A stretch of 37,052 nucleotides of DNA, taken from assembly GCA_026388735.1 (NCBI GenBank), contig JAPLJG010000030.1:1-37052 (forward strand). The letters run 5' to 3'. A model generated the notes under the pieces. It was not told the DNA's origin and ran no database searches. It saw nothing but the letters and a program-made list of their open reading frames with translations. The position numbers were made by a program, and so were the translations under genes. How positions within the stretch are numbered: position 1 is the stretch's first letter; each line of letters starts with the position of its first letter. This DNA comes from Deltaproteobacteria bacterium. GTDB taxonomy: Bacteria > Desulfobacterota > Desulfobulbia > Desulfobulbales > Desulfurivibrionaceae. Below, piece after piece: positions 19,460 through 35,615 of this stretch.

Positions 19460-19535
<76 letters not shown>

Positions 19536-27802: not shown

Positions 27803-29101
27803 ATGCTTTCCAAACTCTTTGATCAAATAGACAAGTGGAAAAAAGGCGCCTCCCCCGGCATCCCAGGTGAAGCATCCACCAAAGCCCGCCAGCCTTCCCT
27901 CTCTCCTGAAATTCCTCAGGTACCTACCTGGGCTCCTGGAGATACCATTCTTAACCGTTATCATATCGAACAGGTTATGTCGGGATCCATGGGGAACGTT
28001 TACATCTCCGAGCATCTCGGTTGGAAAATAAAGGTCGCGATCAAAGCTCCCCGGCCTGAAGTCCTTGCCGACCGTGAAGGCATGCGCCGGATACTCAAAG
28101 AAGCCAACAGCTGGGTCAGGATGGGCATGCATCCCAACGTCGCTTCCTGTTTTTATGTTCTTGGCATCAACAAGATCCCCCATCTTTTCATCGAATTTGT
28201 CGATGGCGGGAATCTTTCCGACTGGATCAAGGCCGGTCGCTGCAGAAACCTCCGCACCGCCCTCTCTCTTGCCATTCAATTCTGTCACGGCATGGAATTT
28301 ACCCACCAACGGGGCATTATCCATCGCGATATCAAACCCCAAAATATTCTGATCACCAAAAACTCCTTGTTAAAAATAACCGATTTCGGCATTCTCCTTG
28401 CCCATGGGGATACAGAAAAAGGCGACGGCCAGGTTCCTGATGTTGACCCGACAGATCATGAAGCCACCATCGGTTTTCGGGGAACCCTCGGCTACGCATC
28501 CCCAGAACAACTACGCAACGCCCACACGGTTGACCTGCGGACGGATATCTTCTCATTTGGCCTGTGTCTCTGGGTTATGCTCTGCGGCAAGAAGCCATTT
28601 ACCAACAATACCTTAGAACATAAAATACCCGCCCCGACTCCGGCTGCACCGGACATCAAATTTTCCGCAGGGCTCAAAGCTATTTTACGCAAAAGCGTTG
28701 CCTACAATCCCGACGACCGCTATCAAAATTTTGCCGAGATGCGGGAAGCCCTGAACGGGGCTTACACTGCGGCCTTTAACACCTCCTGCCCCTACGCGGA
28801 GCTCAGCAATATCGATCTCAGGGCAGACGGCCTTAACAACAGAGCTGTCTCCCTCTTTGAACTGGGAGAAAGCAAAGAGGCTGCCGCCTGTCTTAACAAG
28901 ACACTTGACGTCAATGAAATGCTCCCCGAAGCGGCTTATAATATGATTCTGCTCAACTGGCGCTCGGGAACAAAAGCAGGGAAAATTATCCGGCAGATTG
29001 AAACAGCCAAAAAACGTGGCGCCACAACCCAAAAAACGTGGCGCCACAACGCCTTGGCTCACCGAGATGGAGGCTGCGGTCAAACGCAGCATGGTGGCTG
29101 A
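27803..29101 (+). CDS. Ser/Thr protein kinase with TPR-like region, N-terminal part of a frameshifted kinase-WD40 gene
   Basis: From the ATG at 27803 the product has a complete Hanks-type kinase domain: glycine loop MSGSMGNVY (59-67), Lys81 in VAIKAPRP, Glu100, catalytic HRDIKPQN (174-181), DFG (194-196) and GTLGYASPEQL. A TPR-like segment follows (NNRAVSLFELGESKEAAACL; LPEAAYNMILLNW). After KKRGATT the frame is wrong (QKTWRHNALAHRDGG) because of a perfect 22-bp tandem duplication at 29007-29050. Removing one copy joins it to the WD40 part. The kinase should still be active in the short form. Ribosome site is weak; coupling to the FHA gene is likely. Confidence 0.9.
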   Translation: MLSKLFDQIDKWKKGASPGIPGEASTKARQPSLSPEIPQVPTWAPGDTILNRYHIEQVMSGSMGNVYISEHLGWKIKVAIKAPRPEVLADREGMRRILKEANSWVRMGMHPNVASCFYVLGINKIPHLFIEFVDGGNLSDWIKAGRCRNLRTALSLAIQFCHGMEFTHQRGIIHRDIKPQNILITKNSLLKITDFGILLAHGDTEKGDGQVPDVDPTDHEATIGFRGTLGYASPEQLRNAHTVDLRTDIFSFGLCLWVMLCGKKPFTNNTLEHKIPAPTPAAPDIKFSAGLKAILRKSVAYNPDDRYQNFAEMREALNGAYTAAFNTSCPYAELSNIDLRADGLNNRAVSLFELGESKEAAACLNKTLDVNEMLPEAAYNMILLNWRSGTKAGKIIRQIETAKKRGATTQKTWRHNALAHRDGGCGQTQHGG

Positions 29102-30263
29102 CAACGTCGAGCTTGAAAAGCAGCAATTTCCAGAATTCCGCCTGTGTACCCCAAAAAACTCCCTGGAAATTTTCCGCGAAGGGCAACTCCATTTCTCTGT
29201 GCAGCGCAACATCCTCGACCACTTGGACAATAAACGCTATGGCCCATGCCATGACATCCTGATGACGGCATGGAAAAACAGCAGCTACAAAAAAGACAAA
29301 GTTTTCAATATGGTCTATCATCGACTGTTGTTGGTCGGCAAAAAAAAGAAAGTGCTGGGAGTCCAGCGTTTTCTGACTTTGAACGGTGATGAAGGGCCGA
29401 CAACACATCTGGCCCATATCCCGAATACAAAGAAATTTGTTGCCGCCGGCCCCAAGGGAAAAATAATCCTTCACGACCTGGGTGCCTCCTCACAGCATGG
29501 CCTTGTCTTGGGGAAAGACGGCAGTGCTATTTCCGCGCTGGCTATCTGTCCCCGGAGTAATTTTATCGCCGTAGGCGCACAGGATGGAACCGTCTGCCTT
29601 TTTTCCACAAAAACCGGTACCCTGGAATCAAGGGAGCCTGCCCATAATGGCCCGGTGCATGCTTTAGCCTTCAACGAAGATGGCCGCTACCTTGCATCCG
29701 GCGGCGCAGACGGCATCATGAAAATACGCAAACTCGGCACCGGCCCGGAAATGTCCACCTCAATCAAGGAAGGCGGCTCTGTCCGCGCCATTACCTATAC
29801 GACTAGTGGTTTAAATCTGGTAACCGGGAGCGAAGACGGCTCTGTCCGCTTCTGGGACACAAACGGCAAAGAATGCACGCGAATCATTGAAGCCCATGCC
29901 ATGCCGGTTATCGCCCTGGCAAATTCATCTGATGGCCAGCGCTTTGTTTCCGCTGGCACCGACCGTCACCTCAAAGTATGGGAGCACAAGACCGGACGCT
30001 GCCTCAAATCGATCAAAGCCCATGATGAAACCATTTCTTCCGCTTTGTTTCTCCAGGACAACCAAACCCTGATCTCCGGCTGCGAAGATGACATCATCAA
30101 ACTTTGGGACAGTAACAGTGGGGAATGCCTTGCCATTCTTGACGGCAGAGGCGATGGCATTTACAGCCTTGCCCATGGACCAAAGCCCCACACCTTTCTT
30201 GCCGGGAGAAAAGACGGGGCTATTGTTTTTTGGATGGTAATCTACCAACTTGATTTTGAGTAA
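28998..30263 (+). CDS. WD40-repeat C-terminal part of the frameshifted kinase-WD40 gene
   Basis: After the duplicated site the frame reads TTPWLTEMEAAVKRSMVADN and leads, through a helical region, into about six or seven WD40-type repeats: GPVHALAFNEDGRYLASGGA, SVRAITYTTSGLNLVTGSED, GSVRFWD, RHLKVWEHKTGRCLKSIKAH and IIKLWDSNSGECLAILDG. The nominal start is a TTG at 28998 inside the kinase gene and is not credible. WD40 propellers bind proteins, and kinase-WD40 fusions are known in bacteria. If the duplication is real, this half is not translated or needs frameshifting. Confidence 0.85.
   Translation: MKQPKNVAPQPKKRGATTPWLTEMEAAVKRSMVADNVELEKQQFPEFRLCTPKNSLEIFREGQLHFSVQRNILDHLDNKRYGPCHDILMTAWKNSSYKKDKVFNMVYHRLLLVGKKKKVLGVQRFLTLNGDEGPTTHLAHIPNTKKFVAAGPKGKIILHDLGASSQHGLVLGKDGSAISALAICPRSNFIAVGAQDGTVCLFSTKTGTLESREPAHNGPVHALAFNEDGRYLASGGADGIMKIRKLGTGPEMSTSIKEGGSVRAITYTTSGLNLVTGSEDGSVRFWDTNGKECTRIIEAHAMPVIALANSSDGQRFVSAGTDRHLKVWEHKTGRCLKSIKAHDETISSALFLQDNQTLISGCEDDIIKLWDSNSGECLAILDGRGDGIYSLAHGPKPHTFLAGRKDGAIVFWMVIYQLDFE
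29007..29050 (+). repeat. perfect 22-bp tandem duplication causing a frameshift
   Basis: Two identical 22-base copies (29007-29028 and 29029-29050), each beginning CCAAAAAACGTGGCG and ending CCACAAC, lie head to tail. Each contains the ten-base palindrome GTGGCGCCAC. Twenty-two is not a multiple of three, so the second copy shifts the frame. Deleting one copy restores one continuous reading frame, AKKRGATTPWLTEME. Confidence 0.95.
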
Positions 30264-30294
30264 TTTCCCCGGCCGGGAATGCAACAGGACATTC

Positions 30295-31062
30295 ATGATG
30301 TTCAGTTTTTTCAAAAAAATCTGCAAAAGCAAGCCCAGAGCCATTTCTTTTTATGGACGCACGGACACCGGAATGGTCCGCGACCATAACGAAGACAGCT
30401 TTTGCTCTCTGCGCAACCGGCGTCTTTTCGTAGTTGCCGATGGCATGGGTGGCCATAATGCGGGCGAGGTCGCCAGCAGCCTGGCCATCGAATCCCTGCT
30501 CGAATTCCTCTCGGAAGAAAAAATCAAGGAAATCCACGGCAACGACGCTGAAATCCACCAGAGTATGCTGGCGGCCTTCAGCCATGCCAATCAGGCCGTA
30601 ATGGCCAAAGCCGCCAGTGACGAGACCATGCTGGGCATGGGCTGCACCATGGTCGCCTGCCTTCTTGACGAAAATCGCCTCCACACCTGCCACGTCGGGG
30701 ATGCGCGCTGTTACCTCGCCGAAAAAGGCAGCCTGGAACAGATCACCACCGATCATACCACGGTAGCATACATCCACAGAACCGATGCCAACAACAAGGA
30801 TATCCAGGTCCCGCGCCATGTGGTAACGAGAGCCATCGGCTTCCATACCCTTGAGGGGCCGGAATACCACAAAAATATTTTGCGGCCCGGAAGCAGGGTG
30901 CTTCTCTGTTCCGACGGCCTATGGAACATGGTTGACCACACCCGGATTGAGCAAATCCTCCTCAATTCTTCCACCCCGGAAAAAGCCAGCGAAACTCTGG
31001 TCACGGCAGCCAATGAGCAAGGCGGGCGCGACAACATCACTGCCCTGGTAATCTTTTATTAA
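30295..31062 (+). CDS. PP2C-family protein phosphatase (Stp/PrpC-like)
   Basis: Starting at 30295 (MMFSFFKKICKSK, with AGGAC just before), the 255-residue protein has all PP2C motifs: RDHNED (29-34), VADGMGGHNAGEVAS (47-61), HVGDARCYL, VTRAIG, LLCSDGLWNMV and GGRDNIT. These bind the metal ions used to hydrolyse phosphoserine and phosphothreonine. It follows the kinase-WD40 gene and FHA gene in one operon, so it is the natural antagonist of the kinase. A longer start at 30250 is unlikely. Confidence 0.93.
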   Translation: MMFSFFKKICKSKPRAISFYGRTDTGMVRDHNEDSFCSLRNRRLFVVADGMGGHNAGEVASSLAIESLLEFLSEEKIKEIHGNDAEIHQSMLAAFSHANQAVMAKAASDETMLGMGCTMVACLLDENRLHTCHVGDARCYLAEKGSLEQITTDHTTVAYIHRTDANNKDIQVPRHVVTRAIGFHTLEGPEYHKNILRPGSRVLLCSDGLWNMVDHTRIEQILLNSSTPEKASETLVTAANEQGGRDNITALVIFY

Positions 31063-31073
31063 CGCGAGAGACA

Positions 31074-31664
31074 ATGTCTGCCCAGCACAACAACCAGAAT
31101 ACCCTTGAAAACATCGCCGCCGACCTCACGGCCCTGGCCAATGATCTTGCCCAGGGAAAACTCCGGGTTGGCAATCGACTTGTCGCCATAGGAAACCCAC
31201 TGTTCATCAAAACCAAGCAGAAGATCACGGGCGACACCGCATATTTCACCCTGTCTTTTCAAGTGCCTCTCAGGGATTCGGATAGGGAGGACTTGCTGAC
31301 GGCCAGCCAGAAAGATATCCCGGAAAAACCGTACCAGGACAAGCATGACAAGGGGTTGCGATTGCAGGGGCGACCACCGGAGGGGAAAAAAATAAAAAAA
31401 GAGATTACCCGCCTCTGGAAAAGCGTTTTCAAAAATCTTGAACAGGGCCAGGCTCCCACTCCTGCCGAAGAAAAATCCCTTATTTCCGCCTTTGAGAACT
31501 ATACCGCCTTCACAGAACCGGCCTGGCATGAAGACTGGCTTACATGTTTCACGATCCTGCGGGAGGCCTTGATCTGTGCCCGCAATGGCGATATGTCCAA
31601 AGCTCTGGAACATGCCGCCGAAGTGAACGCCCTCACCAAGACCTGCCACAAAAAACATAAATAG
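31074..31664 (+). CDS. amphi-Trp/XXXCH-like protein of unknown function
   Basis: The 196-residue protein starts with a helix rich in leucine and alanine and a strand region (LTALANDLAQGKLRVGNRLV; TAYFTLSFQVPL) that resembles the amphi-Trp domain. It ends in a charged helix with a terminal CH motif, EVNALTKTCHKKHK, as in proteins of the XXXCH type often found in Desulfobacterota. Both are seen in the so-called GAK gene sets, whose function is not established. The other GAK genes are not near. It lies 11 bases after the phosphatase gene and is probably in the same operon. Family resemblance is from memory and moderate. Confidence 0.55.
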   Translation: MSAQHNNQNTLENIAADLTALANDLAQGKLRVGNRLVAIGNPLFIKTKQKITGDTAYFTLSFQVPLRDSDREDLLTASQKDIPEKPYQDKHDKGLRLQGRPPEGKKIKKEITRLWKSVFKNLEQGQAPTPAEEKSLISAFENYTAFTEPAWHEDWLTCFTILREALICARNGDMSKALEHAAEVNALTKTCHKKHK

Positions 31665-31672
31665 CCGTTTCC

Positions 31673-32476
31673 ATGAACCCCTACGAGATTGTCAAACGAA
31701 CCCCAAAGACCAACTGCGCCCAATGCGGCTACCCAACCTGCCTTGCCTTTTCCGCGGCTGTCGCCAAAAGTGGCGAGGACTTTGGCAAATGCCCTTATCT
31801 CGACACCTCCGGCCTGGATGTTGCACAAAAACAAGGCCCTGCTGCTCTTGAGGAACTTTCCGGTCAACGCGATCTTACCCTTATAGAACACCTTAAAGAG
31901 AAAATCTCCGCCCTAGATTTCACCCGTATTGCCGCCCCCTTGGGCGCCACCCTCTGTGGCGAAGACGACCAAACCCTGTCGTTTCCGTTTCTTGCCCAGG
32001 AAGTGCTCCTGAGCAAGCAAGGAATTCTCCTGAACGGCTGTACACCCGATGACCCTAGGGACCAAATCCTGATCTACAATTACATCCACTCCCAAGGCGG
32101 TGCCGATCCTGCCTTGGACTGGATCGGGCTGGAAACCCTACCCAACTCGATTTCGAAAGTAATAACCCTTGCCACCTATTGCGAAAACCGATTGGCGGAA
32201 CTCTTCACGCATCTTCCTGTCGAAACCATCAGCTCGGCGTGCAACCGGTTAGGAGGCATTGCGCGCCCAACGCCATCCGCCACGCTCGGCTGCATCATCC
32301 CGGTCCTGCCCAAGATTCCGCAATATCTTGTCTACTGGCAGGAAGAACCCGAAGACGGGTTTCCCGCCAAGGTCAAGATCCTGTTTGATCGCCAGGTTAT
32401 GAATTTTCTCGACCTGGAATCCCTGATCTTTTCGGCGGAACGTTTGACAGAACGCCTTGCCGTCCTGCTGGCCTAA
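31673..32476 (+). CDS. 4Fe-4S-binding DUF3786 protein
   Basis: The 267-residue protein begins with a cluster-binding motif TNCAQCGYPTCLAFSAAVAK, with a fourth cysteine in FGKCPYL, as in the small Fe-S domain of corrinoid/CO-dehydrogenase-associated proteins. The remainder, including SFPFLAQEVLLSKQGILLNG and YNYIHSQGGA, is the DUF3786 region. DUF3786 proteins occur mainly in strict anaerobes; their reaction is unknown. It starts eight bases after the preceding gene and ends the plus-strand operon. Confidence 0.85.
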   Translation: MNPYEIVKRTPKTNCAQCGYPTCLAFSAAVAKSGEDFGKCPYLDTSGLDVAQKQGPAALEELSGQRDLTLIEHLKEKISALDFTRIAAPLGATLCGEDDQTLSFPFLAQEVLLSKQGILLNGCTPDDPRDQILIYNYIHSQGGADPALDWIGLETLPNSISKVITLATYCENRLAELFTHLPVETISSACNRLGGIARPTPSATLGCIIPVLPKIPQYLVYWQEEPEDGFPAKVKILFDRQVMNFLDLESLIFSAERLTERLAVLLA

Positions 32477-32599: not shown

Positions 32600-33928
32600 A
32601 TGGCCCGACAACCCGCCACCCACACCGCCCCCTTGGCAGAACGCCTGCGTCCGCAAACGATAGATGATTTTGTCGGGCAAAAACAGCTGCTGGGCGAGGA
32701 CAAGCTCCTTAGTCGGCTCATCCACCAGAGATACCTGCCCTCCCTTGTCCTCTGGGGCCCGCCCGGCACCGGTAAAACCACCCTGGCCCGGATTCTTGCC
32801 CAAACAACCGGGGCTGATTTTTCTTTCTTTTCCGCAGTTCTGTCCGGGGTCAAGGAGATTCGGGAAATAGTGGCCCAGGCCCAGGCGGCCAAGGAAGAAC
32901 GCAACACCGCCACCATTGTCTTTGTAGATGAAATCCATCGCTTCAACAAAAGCCAGCAGGACGCCTTTCTCCCCCACGTGGAAAGCGGCCTGTTGACCCT
33001 GATCGGCGCGACCACCGAGAATCCCTCGTTCCACGTTATCGCGCCCCTTCTCTCCCGCTGCCGGGTTCTGGTCCTTGACCCCTTGAGCCCGGACGACTTA
33101 CAGACCATTCTCCAACGGGCCATCACCGACAAGGACCAGGGGCTGGGCTCCTGGCAGATATCTCTTGCGCCGGAGGCTGCCGCCCACCTGGCCAGGATTG
33201 CCGACGGCGACGCGCGCAGCCTGCTGAACAGCTTGGAAATCGCCGCCAATCTCGCCGAACCGGATGCCACGGGCACGCGGCAGATAACCCTGGCCACGGT
33301 GGAAGAAGCCATCCAGCGCAAAAGCCTGCGCTATGATGCGGATGGCGAGGAGCATTACAATCTGATTTCGGCCTTGCACAAAAGCCTGCGGGACAGCGAT
33401 CCAGACGGAGCCCTGTACTGGCTGTGCCGGATGCTCGCCGCCGGGGAGGAACCCCTGTATGTGCTCCGCCGCCTGATCCGTTTTGCCTCGGAGGACATCG
33501 GCAACGCGGACCCGCAGGCCCTCATGGTTGCCATAAACGCCAGGAACTCGTATCAGACCCTAGGCAGCCCGGAGGGAGAACTGGCCCTTGCCCAGGCCGT
33601 CACCTATCTTGCCACCGCCCCCAAGAGCAATGCCGTCTATGCCGCCTACAACACCGTGATGCAGGAGATCAGACGCACAGGCAGCCTGCCGGTGCCGCTC
33701 CATCTCCGCAACGCGCCAACTGCGTTGATGAAGGACCTCGGCTATGGCCAGGGCTATCAGTATGCCCACGATGATTCCCATGCCCTGGTGGATCAGCACC
33801 ATTTACCGGCTGAACTTAAGGGAAAAACCTATTATCAGCCAACCAATCGAGGATATGAAGCGGTTATCCGGGATCGGCTGGGCAAATGGCGACAGCTGCT
33901 GCGGGATCGCAAAAAACAATCCGCCTGA
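32600..33928 (+). CDS. rarA: replication-associated recombination protein A (MgsA/RarA)
   Basis: The 442-residue product is of full RarA length. It has Walker A GPPGTGKT (53-60), Walker B FVDEIHRFNKSQQDAF (108-123), sensor TTENPSF and a helical C-terminal half with GSLPVPLHLRNAP and the conserved KDLGYGQGYQYAHD. RarA is an AAA+ ATPase related to clamp loaders that acts at stalled replication forks. It follows a 123-base gap after DUF3786. The selenoprotein gene starts 34 bases after its stop. Confidence 0.96.
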   Translation: MARQPATHTAPLAERLRPQTIDDFVGQKQLLGEDKLLSRLIHQRYLPSLVLWGPPGTGKTTLARILAQTTGADFSFFSAVLSGVKEIREIVAQAQAAKEERNTATIVFVDEIHRFNKSQQDAFLPHVESGLLTLIGATTENPSFHVIAPLLSRCRVLVLDPLSPDDLQTILQRAITDKDQGLGSWQISLAPEAAAHLARIADGDARSLLNSLEIAANLAEPDATGTRQITLATVEEAIQRKSLRYDADGEEHYNLISALHKSLRDSDPDGALYWLCRMLAAGEEPLYVLRRLIRFASEDIGNADPQALMVAINARNSYQTLGSPEGELALAQAVTYLATAPKSNAVYAAYNTVMQEIRRTGSLPVPLHLRNAPTALMKDLGYGQGYQYAHDDSHALVDQHHLPAELKGKTYYQPTNRGYEAVIRDRLGKWRQLLRDRKKQSA

Positions 33929-33962
33929 TCCTTTTTCAGGCAACTATTTAGATCAGGAGCAC

Positions 33963-35615
33963 ATGACCACCATGAACAAACAGGCCACCTTTCTGCTGCT
34001 TTCCTTTCTTGCCCTGTTCAGCATAACCGCACCCGCATCAGGGGCCTTGGAAAAAGGGAAGGGCAACGCCAGCCAACCCACAGAAGCGCTGCACGATCTA
34101 ACCATCTTTTTTTCCAATGATGTAAGGGGAGAAACCGAGCCCTGCGGCTGAAAAAGCAATCAGTTGGGCGGTCTGCCCAAGAAAGCAGAGCAGCTTGAAG
34201 CCGTCCGGGGAAAAAAATCCGCAGTGCTTGCCCTTGACAGCGGGGCCCTGCTTTTTAAGGATGAAAAGTTGCCGCAAGATCAACGCGAGCAGCTCACTGT
34301 TACGGCGCAGGGAATCACCGCAGCATACAGTAAGATGTCCTTTGCCGCCGTTGGCTTGGCCAGACAGGATCTCGCGGCAGGCCTGCCATTCCTCCTTGCT
34401 GTCCAGAAAAAATCAAACTTCCCCTGGCTGAGCGCCAACCTGCTCAACCGCACCGAACGAAAAACCTGGTTCAAACCACACACCCTGATCACGGCAGGAG
34501 GTATGCGCATCGCGATCATCGGCCTCACCGGCCAAGGCCCCGACTCTCTCCTTACCGAAAAAGATAACGCGGTCATTGCCCCCTGGGAAGAGGTGTTACC
34601 CAAGGAAATCGCCCAGCTGCGTAGCCGGGCCGAGATGATTATTCTACTTTCCAGCTTTCCTGCGGCAATAAACCGGAAAATTGCGGAGACCCATCCGGAG
34701 ATCCACCTGATTCTCCAAGGCGGGAGCAACCAAGGCAACATCCCCCCGGAGCGGGTCAACAACACCCTGATCACCCAGGTGGAAGGTCAGGGCAAATCAG
34801 TGGGTATTCTGGAAGTACATTGGAGCGCACAGAGCAAGAGATGGGAAGACCCCGGCTCGGAAAATCTGCTGGCAGACAAAAAAAACGAAATGGACCGCCT
34901 GGGATGGCAGATCAACCGGTACCGTCGACAAGGCGAGCCGGAACAGGCTTTCAAAAACCAACCCGAGGTTCTTGAAGTCTATAACGATATGCTGGCAAGA
35001 CAACGACTGTTGGAAGAAGAGATTGTCCGTCTCACCGCCACGCAGAACGCACGGGAGGCGAGCCGCAAACGACTCTCCTCATACCGCAACCAATTTGAGG
35101 CCATGCGTAAGGACCTTCCGGACAACCCGGCGGTCCGGGCCATTGTCGATGCAACCACCAGCGAGGTGAACCGGATCGGCAAGGCTGCGGTAAAAGCGAG
35201 AATTTCAGGGATTACCGGCCAGCCCCAAGAAGGGCCCACAGGAAATTACGCCGGCAGCACCGCCTGCACCAGCTGTCATGCCCCGCAGTTTGCAAAATGG
35301 CGCGGCACCCAGCATGCCACGGCCTATGACACCTTGGAGGCAAAGGGGCAGCAGTTCAATGTGCAGTGTCTTCCCTGCCACATCACCGGACCTGCCGCCC
35401 AGACAGGACAGGAAATGCTCGCCCTGGCCCATGATCTGCGCCAGGTTGGCTGCGAATCCTGCCATGGCCCGGGCCGGGCCCACACCATCCAGCCAGCAGC
35501 CGCCAAAGCTGGTCAGCCGACCATGGCCACCTGTCTGCGCTGCCACAGCGGCGAGCATGACGACAGATTCAACTTTTCCGAGGCTCTCTCCCGCCTTCGC
35601 TGCGGCGCCGACTGA
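33963..35615 (+). CDS. selenocysteine-containing 5'-nucleotidase-like protein fused to tetrahaem cytochrome c
   Basis: From the ATG at 33963 (ribosome site AGGAG at 33956-33960), an in-frame TGA at 34149-34151 is codon 63, in the motif GETEPCG(U)KSNQLGG. Homologues of this family carry PCGC there, so TGA replaces a conserved cysteine. A SECIS-type hairpin follows. Decoded as Sec, the product is 550 residues. It has a signal peptide (about 1-28, FLLLSFLALFSITAPASGA), a metallophosphatase-like domain (TIFFSNDVRGE, IAIIGLTG) and four haem sites (CTSCH, CLPCH, CESCH, CLRCH) near residues 425-550. It is exported and probably redox-active in the periplasm. Confidence 0.88.
34152..34180 (+). promoter_or_regulatory. 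bacterial SECIS element
   Basis: TTGGGC (34164-34169) pairs with GCCCAA (34175-34180) around the five-base loop GGTCT, whose first base is 18 bases past the TGA. A G among the first loop bases and this distance fit bacterial SECIS rules, and the GGTCT loop is the same as in the E. coli fdhF SECIS. It would recruit SelB with Sec-tRNA. Confidence 0.85.

Follow-up and report, generated by a model that had tools for sequence, protein, structure and literature searches.

A stretch of 37,052 nucleotides from a deltaproteobacterium of the Desulfurivibrionaceae (GenBank assembly GCA_026388735.1, contig JAPLJG010000030.1; the whole stretch is here called the window) raises the question of whether two adjacent frames on its plus strand are one gene, and of what a protein made from both would do. 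Under translation table 11, two in-phase ORFs are seen, one at 33744-34151 that ends in PCG and another at 34164-35615 (483 amino acids), and the frame 33963-35615 is open apart from a single TGA at 34149-34151. The open-frame check bears out the proposal of the initial annotation that the two are one gene split by this in-frame codon. When the TGA is read as selenocysteine (Sec), a protein of 550 residues with Sec63 is obtained; the translation across the codon runs ...NDVRGETEPCG-U-KSNQLGGL..., and the motif NDVRGETEPCGU ends at residue 63. An ATG at 33972 is an alternative possible start.

The gene is intact and belongs to a selenoprotein family already known. Residues 37-539 of its product match positions 15-519 of the 519-position NCBIfam model NF041198 (UshA_like_PCGU) with 624.2 bits, the curated cut-off being 275, so that the same PCGU motif is found within a near full-length match; no feature separating the window protein from this family was found. 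The family is not new, since a UshA-like CxU family has been in print since 2008, in a table and one sentence of an ocean survey (PMC2398784), and again in tables of two reviews (PMC9312934, PMC13188914). In these tables and that sentence it appears as list entries and a single statement free of function, and a literature search, mostly without subscription journals, found no function paper on the UshA-like PCGU family. A related family, NF049981 (UshA-like (seleno)protein family 2), listed with a CxxU motif (PMC13188914), shares the nucleotidase-like domain; the window protein reaches 40 bits with its model, under the cut-off of 140. As a curated model covers this selenoprotein, the initial view of a gene that is hidden and would be split by automatic annotation is outdated for NCBI annotation.

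The best explanation of the protein, to which a probability of about 0.65 may be given, is that it is a periplasmic redox protein whose Cys-Gly-Sec pair exchanges electrons with its own four haems. A redox rather than a hydrolytic role is, taken by itself, likely because of the worn metal site, the conserved Cys/Sec pair, the fused haems, and the respiratory neighbours found elsewhere. The predicted structure (mean pLDDT 87.8, pTM 0.81) gives the layout of the chain. It begins with a hydrophobic stretch (33963-34043, predicted helix 6-21) that, judged from the sequence, is probably an export signal; a 5'-nucleotidase-like metallophosphoesterase fold with a degenerate metal site follows at residues 43-288 (34089-34826), then long helices and one strand at residues 297-417 (34851-35213), and finally a cytochrome at residues 430-545 (35250-35597).

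The last of these parts is a tetrahaem domain of the cytochrome c554 kind, with four CxxCH haem motifs near the C-terminus and a match to the cytochrome c554 family PF13435 (50.9 bits, cut-off 20.8, E 3.2e-13). Cytochrome c554 (1bvb) has this domain too; here it makes up only the C-terminal portion of a longer chain. Of 57 aligned rows, 45 have all four haem motifs, and an additional Cys at 547 is kept in 37 of the 45. Since 12 of the 57 rows are without four motifs (one of them, L096, is cut by a contig end), the cytochrome is not obligatory in the family. Three loci (L086, L088, and L089) carry tandem UshA-like Sec genes, one with PCAU and no haems and one with PCGU and four haems. The pair near the N-terminus is conserved more widely: Cys stands at residue 61 in 54 of the 57 rows and Cys or Sec at residue 63 in 56, and G69 and G70 are invariant in the alignment. 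In one relative (L041), the Cys of residue 61 and the Sec of residue 63 are lost together, which was counted toward the redox role.

Respiratory partners come into view in other families of the phylum, where the UshA-like gene adjoins genes for a 16-haem protein with a NapC/NirT-type start and for a 9-haem protein with a cytochrome b561 domain. In a search of 30 genomes picked for having UshA-like genes, 19 proved to have a particular 16-haem cytochrome of the NapC type and 11 to lack it. It is encoded on the same contig as the UshA-like gene in 15 of the 19 genomes and on another contig in four; in 14 it lies within 1.3 kb of the UshA-like relative, and in a further genome (G081) at about 7 kb. 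Of these 14 linked loci, 13, from five families, were read, and the 9-haem protein is present in 10 of them; because nine of the 13 had been fetched for being linked, the unselected figure for linkage is that of the 30-genome search. Among the three loci without the 9-haem gene, two fill entire contigs shorter than 6 kb and the third starts at the first base of its contig. The recurring cluster of a UshA-like tetrahaem selenoprotein and a 16-haem NapC-type cytochrome, with the 9-haem b561 cytochrome in 10 of 13 cases, is thus seen at L086, L088, L089, L110, and L116-L124. At L119, genes for NADH dehydrogenase (nuo) and ATP synthase (atp) and a hemL gene are close by; L120 has a DsrP gene and a DsrO-like one that falls slightly short of its cut-off. 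In two genomes the 16-haem match spans one TGA (G237:C126:53550-55676 and G215:C142:32567-34696); the one in G237, at the frame end, is probably an ordinary stop.

This arrangement is not that of the window. Its selenoprotein gene follows, after 34 bases, a rarA-like gene for an AAA ATPase (32600-33928, plus strand), and rarA-like genes are retained beside relatives; a manganese-type pyrophosphatase gene is nearby in 8 of 24 compared loci. The other neighbours in the window are a dnaK-like gene, judged from its sequence alone, and genes without a haem or respiratory name. Farther upstream, at 28998-32476, lie genes for a WD40-like protein, a PP2C-type phosphatase, an XXXCH-domain protein, and an Fe-S motif protein. 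The first was named through the related L107 and the last through Pfam in the relative L086; the other two score slightly short of their cut-offs. The order of these genes is partly kept in relatives. The only Rfam match of the window at gathering score is a tRNA at 19463-19535 on the minus strand. The 16-haem protein was found in none of the 27 genomes of the window's taxonomic family, while the same query matched 19 of the 30 other genomes; with the 9-haem query, 6 of the 27 gave matches, most of them partial, and the window's own genome gave none. The same electron partners are therefore unlikely in the window's genome, as they were not found there. For the families in which the genes are linked, quinone-linked respiration stands at about an even chance.

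Some neighbourhoods point elsewhere, toward a Cys-Gly-Sec site, fed by the haems, whose role would be to bind a metal or metalloid or to reduce it (arsenic, mercury, or selenium species). A CxxU relative at L085 is near a gene for an ACR3 arsenite transporter, and another, at L087, is near genes for an ArsP_1/SaoE-like permease (below the SaoE cut-off) and thioredoxin-domain proteins. However, these are two loci only, of which L085 is without the CGU form and L087 has CGU beside CxxU, and no metal-resistance gene occurs among the named neighbours of the 16-haem loci, many neighbours being unnamed. Such a role for the Cys-Gly-Sec site is thus improbable, and metal detoxification as the general role of the family was rejected, being confined to the two loci.

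The nucleotidase-like part brings in another possibility, namely that the protein is an active Sec-containing metallophosphatase, a nucleotidase or SoxB-like hydrolase, in which Sec would bind metal near the active site. Residues 43-288 have the 5'-nucleotidase fold (Foldseek matches to 3ivd, E 1.5e-18, and 1hp1, E 3.1e-18), which together with the four CxxCH motifs agrees with the original description of a 5'-nucleotidase-like protein fused to a tetrahaem cytochrome. The same N-terminal fold, with distant sequence similarity, is found in the 5'-nucleotidases, E. coli UshA among them (1ush, 3ivd, 2z1a). The thiosulfohydrolase SoxB (2wdc, 4uwq) belongs to the same superfamily and was also found by profile (2wdc, E 1.5e-20), but the window protein misses the SoxB cut-off, with 31.7 of 550 bits. 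SoxB is not known to have haems or Sec. The loop that follows the first strand contains Sec63, and in UshA the first metal ligands are found there, which could also be taken in favour of a working phosphatase. The seven metal-ligand positions of UshA and its catalytic His, listed below, were mapped by alignment.

The ligands themselves speak against hydrolysis. The window protein retains one of the seven positions, and its catalytic His is replaced by Gln. Across the 57 rows, Asp53 is retained in 40, His55 in 1, Asp95 in 16, Asn134 in 0, His231 in 11, His254 in 13, and His256 in 1, and the catalytic His at 135 in 1. No row retains more than four of the seven positions; four are kept in 4 rows, and three or four in 10, which by the alignment may still bind metal. 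In addition, the second, C-terminal substrate-binding domain of UshA is absent from the predicted structure, where its place is taken by the long helices and then the cytochrome, so that compared with the 5'-nucleotidases the window protein is without most ligand positions, has the C-terminal domain replaced, and has gained Sec and haems. As the metal-ligand positions are mostly lost, the N-terminal domain is probably no longer a phosphatase, the loss of activity being read from the alignment. This goes against a working metal site beside the Cys/Sec pair, and the idea put forward at the outset, that the pair lies next to the phosphatase metal site, is not supported. An active phosphatase was rejected on the lost ligand positions and, even with the four relatives that keep four of them, is a quite improbable reading of the family.

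The redox pair itself calls for UGA at 34149 to be decoded as Sec, which is almost certain on the comparative evidence. The genome of the window contains selB (367 bits, cut-off 242), tRNA-Sec (72.5 bits, gathering score 47), and selD (379 bits, cut-off 125), and selA is present as well, split over two contig ends; the machinery that the initial annotation had proposed to look for is thus in place. The selD gene of this genome (L019, G000:C73:42505-43428) carries one in-frame TGA and probably encodes a selenoprotein itself. Across the taxonomic family, 27 genomes were searched; 22 of them, that of the window among these, gave a match above the family cut-off. Each of the 22 matches has exactly one TGA, which rules out a base error of one assembly.

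A phylum-level search took in 297 genomes. Among 49 loci formed by the best matches of this search and of the family search, at most 30 from each (L029-L077, the window's own being L030), TGA directly follows Cys-Gly in 47, or in 46 of 48 when the window is left out. The exceptions are L077, a distant nucleotidase-like protein, and L041 (G111:C168), which reads PSGR; in the latter, Cys and Sec have gone together and the hairpin is eroded, while its genome retains selB and another TGA-bearing relative. Among weaker matches of the phylum-level search, forms without TGA are commoner. Twelve non-Sec relatives were inspected, excluding L104, which resembles an ordinary nucleotidase, and 8 of them have CGC: in much the same setting in L094, L095, L096, L100, and L102, whereas in L097, L099, and L103 the form is EGCGC or GGCGC and GG is preceded by fewer residues. 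Selenocysteine at residue 63 and its pairing with Cys, as first proposed, are supported by the Sec machinery and by the TGA at the same site in relatives. The accompanying statement that relatives have PCGC is to be corrected: the closest relatives have PCGU, and among the 12 non-Sec forms PCGC as such was found only in L100.

Among the genomes with Cys forms, G014, G274, and G185 have selB over the cut-off, and G208 has both a Cys form (L100) and a Sec form (L114). Among 40 genomes chosen for UshA-like genes, selB is over the cut-off in 34; three have weaker matches only, possibly to another elongation factor, and in three no selB match was found at 1e-40. All six genomes without a firm selB have TGA forms, and since tRNA-Sec is present in all six and selA in five, the missing selB is likely a matter of gaps in draft genomes.

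A SECIS-like hairpin (34164-34180) begins 12 bases after the TGA. Its strands TTGGGC (34164-34169) and GCCCAA (34175-34180) enclose the loop GGTCT (34170-34174), which starts 18 bases after the TGA. In the E. coli K-12 fdhF SECIS, as read from the fdhF record, GGTCT also stands 18 bases after the TGA, which supports the likeness in loop and spacing seen in the initial annotation, although the stem and the protein differ from those of the window. Folding energy does not make the hairpin stand out, either in the window (z -1.02) or over 55 Sec forms (mean z -0.31, p below 0.05 in 3 of 55), and an Rfam search of the window at gathering scores found no SECIS match. Not being significant, folding energy was rejected as proof of a SECIS, and pairing was instead counted against synonymous shuffles. 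The set comprised 54 of the 55 distinct Sec forms, window included, one with a different spacing being excluded; the Sec form of L114 is absent from the set.

When the loop may have 5 or 6 bases, 49 of the 54 Sec forms make 5 or more of the 6 pairs. A register with a 7-base loop was added after five of the 54 had fallen under 5 pairs, and was applied equally to the shuffles and the non-Sec forms; with loops of 5, 6, or 7 bases the count is 53 of 54, these being related sequences and not independent events. Under the same rule, 1000 synonymous shuffles averaged 17.4 of 54 and never exceeded 29, and the non-Sec relatives gave 2 of 12. Because 53 of 54 pair against at most 29 in the shuffles, the hairpin behind the TGA is, to judge from these comparisons, held by selection on RNA. 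The codons show a matching pattern. For the second Gly, 51 of the 54 Sec forms have the codon GGT, which stands there in 16% of shuffles and in 4 of 12 non-Sec relatives; in the extracted genes as a whole, 319 of 2064 Gly codons are GGT. In the 25 sequences with Pro or Ser after GGL, the loop has 5 bases, and all 25 have G as the last base of the Leu codon preceding GG. In the 29 with Ala after GGL, the loop has 6 bases in most stems; when the residue preceding GG is Leu, the last base of its codon is T or C in 17 of 18. That the register of the hairpin shifts through synonymous codons shows clearly how codon choice serves the insertion of Sec.

That the TGA is a true stop, leaving a broken gene or two products as the two ORFs of table 11 would have it, is scarcely credible given the same TGA in relatives, an intact frame downstream that carries the four haem motifs, the genome's Sec machinery, and a hairpin under selection.

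With the redox reading, the following course may be proposed. An exported selenoprotein of the UshA-like PCGU family would be made from 33963-35615, UGA at 34149 being read as Sec with the help of the downstream hairpin, as conservation suggests. Cys61 and Sec63 would most likely form a selenenylsulfide/selenol redox pair, and electrons would pass between this pair and the chain's own four c-type haems. In the other families, electrons would probably pass to or from the quinone pool through the 16-haem NapC-type and the 9-haem b561-type cytochromes; here the gene linkage is observed, and the direction of the electrons and the substrate are inferred. For the substrate, one may guess at a small compound of sulfur, selenium, or a metalloid.

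A wider proposal is more tentative, and its likelihood is somewhat less than even. In it, a quinone-linked respiratory module so far undescribed would have this family as its catalytic end. The worn phosphatase fold would have become an oxidoreductase that works with Sec, connected through its own four haems to the NapC-type 16-haem cytochrome and to the 9-haem cytochrome with its b561-type membrane domain, and kept together with them in several families of the phylum; the lineage of the window would have kept the selenoprotein and have other electron partners. The selenoprotein as such had already been catalogued, and the useful part of the present analysis is the worn phosphatase site and the many relatives beside respiratory haem proteins, which together point to electron transfer and not to phosphate removal. 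If this is true, the loss of the phosphatase site and the linkage to haem proteins would give an orphan selenoprotein a testable job in anaerobic respiration.
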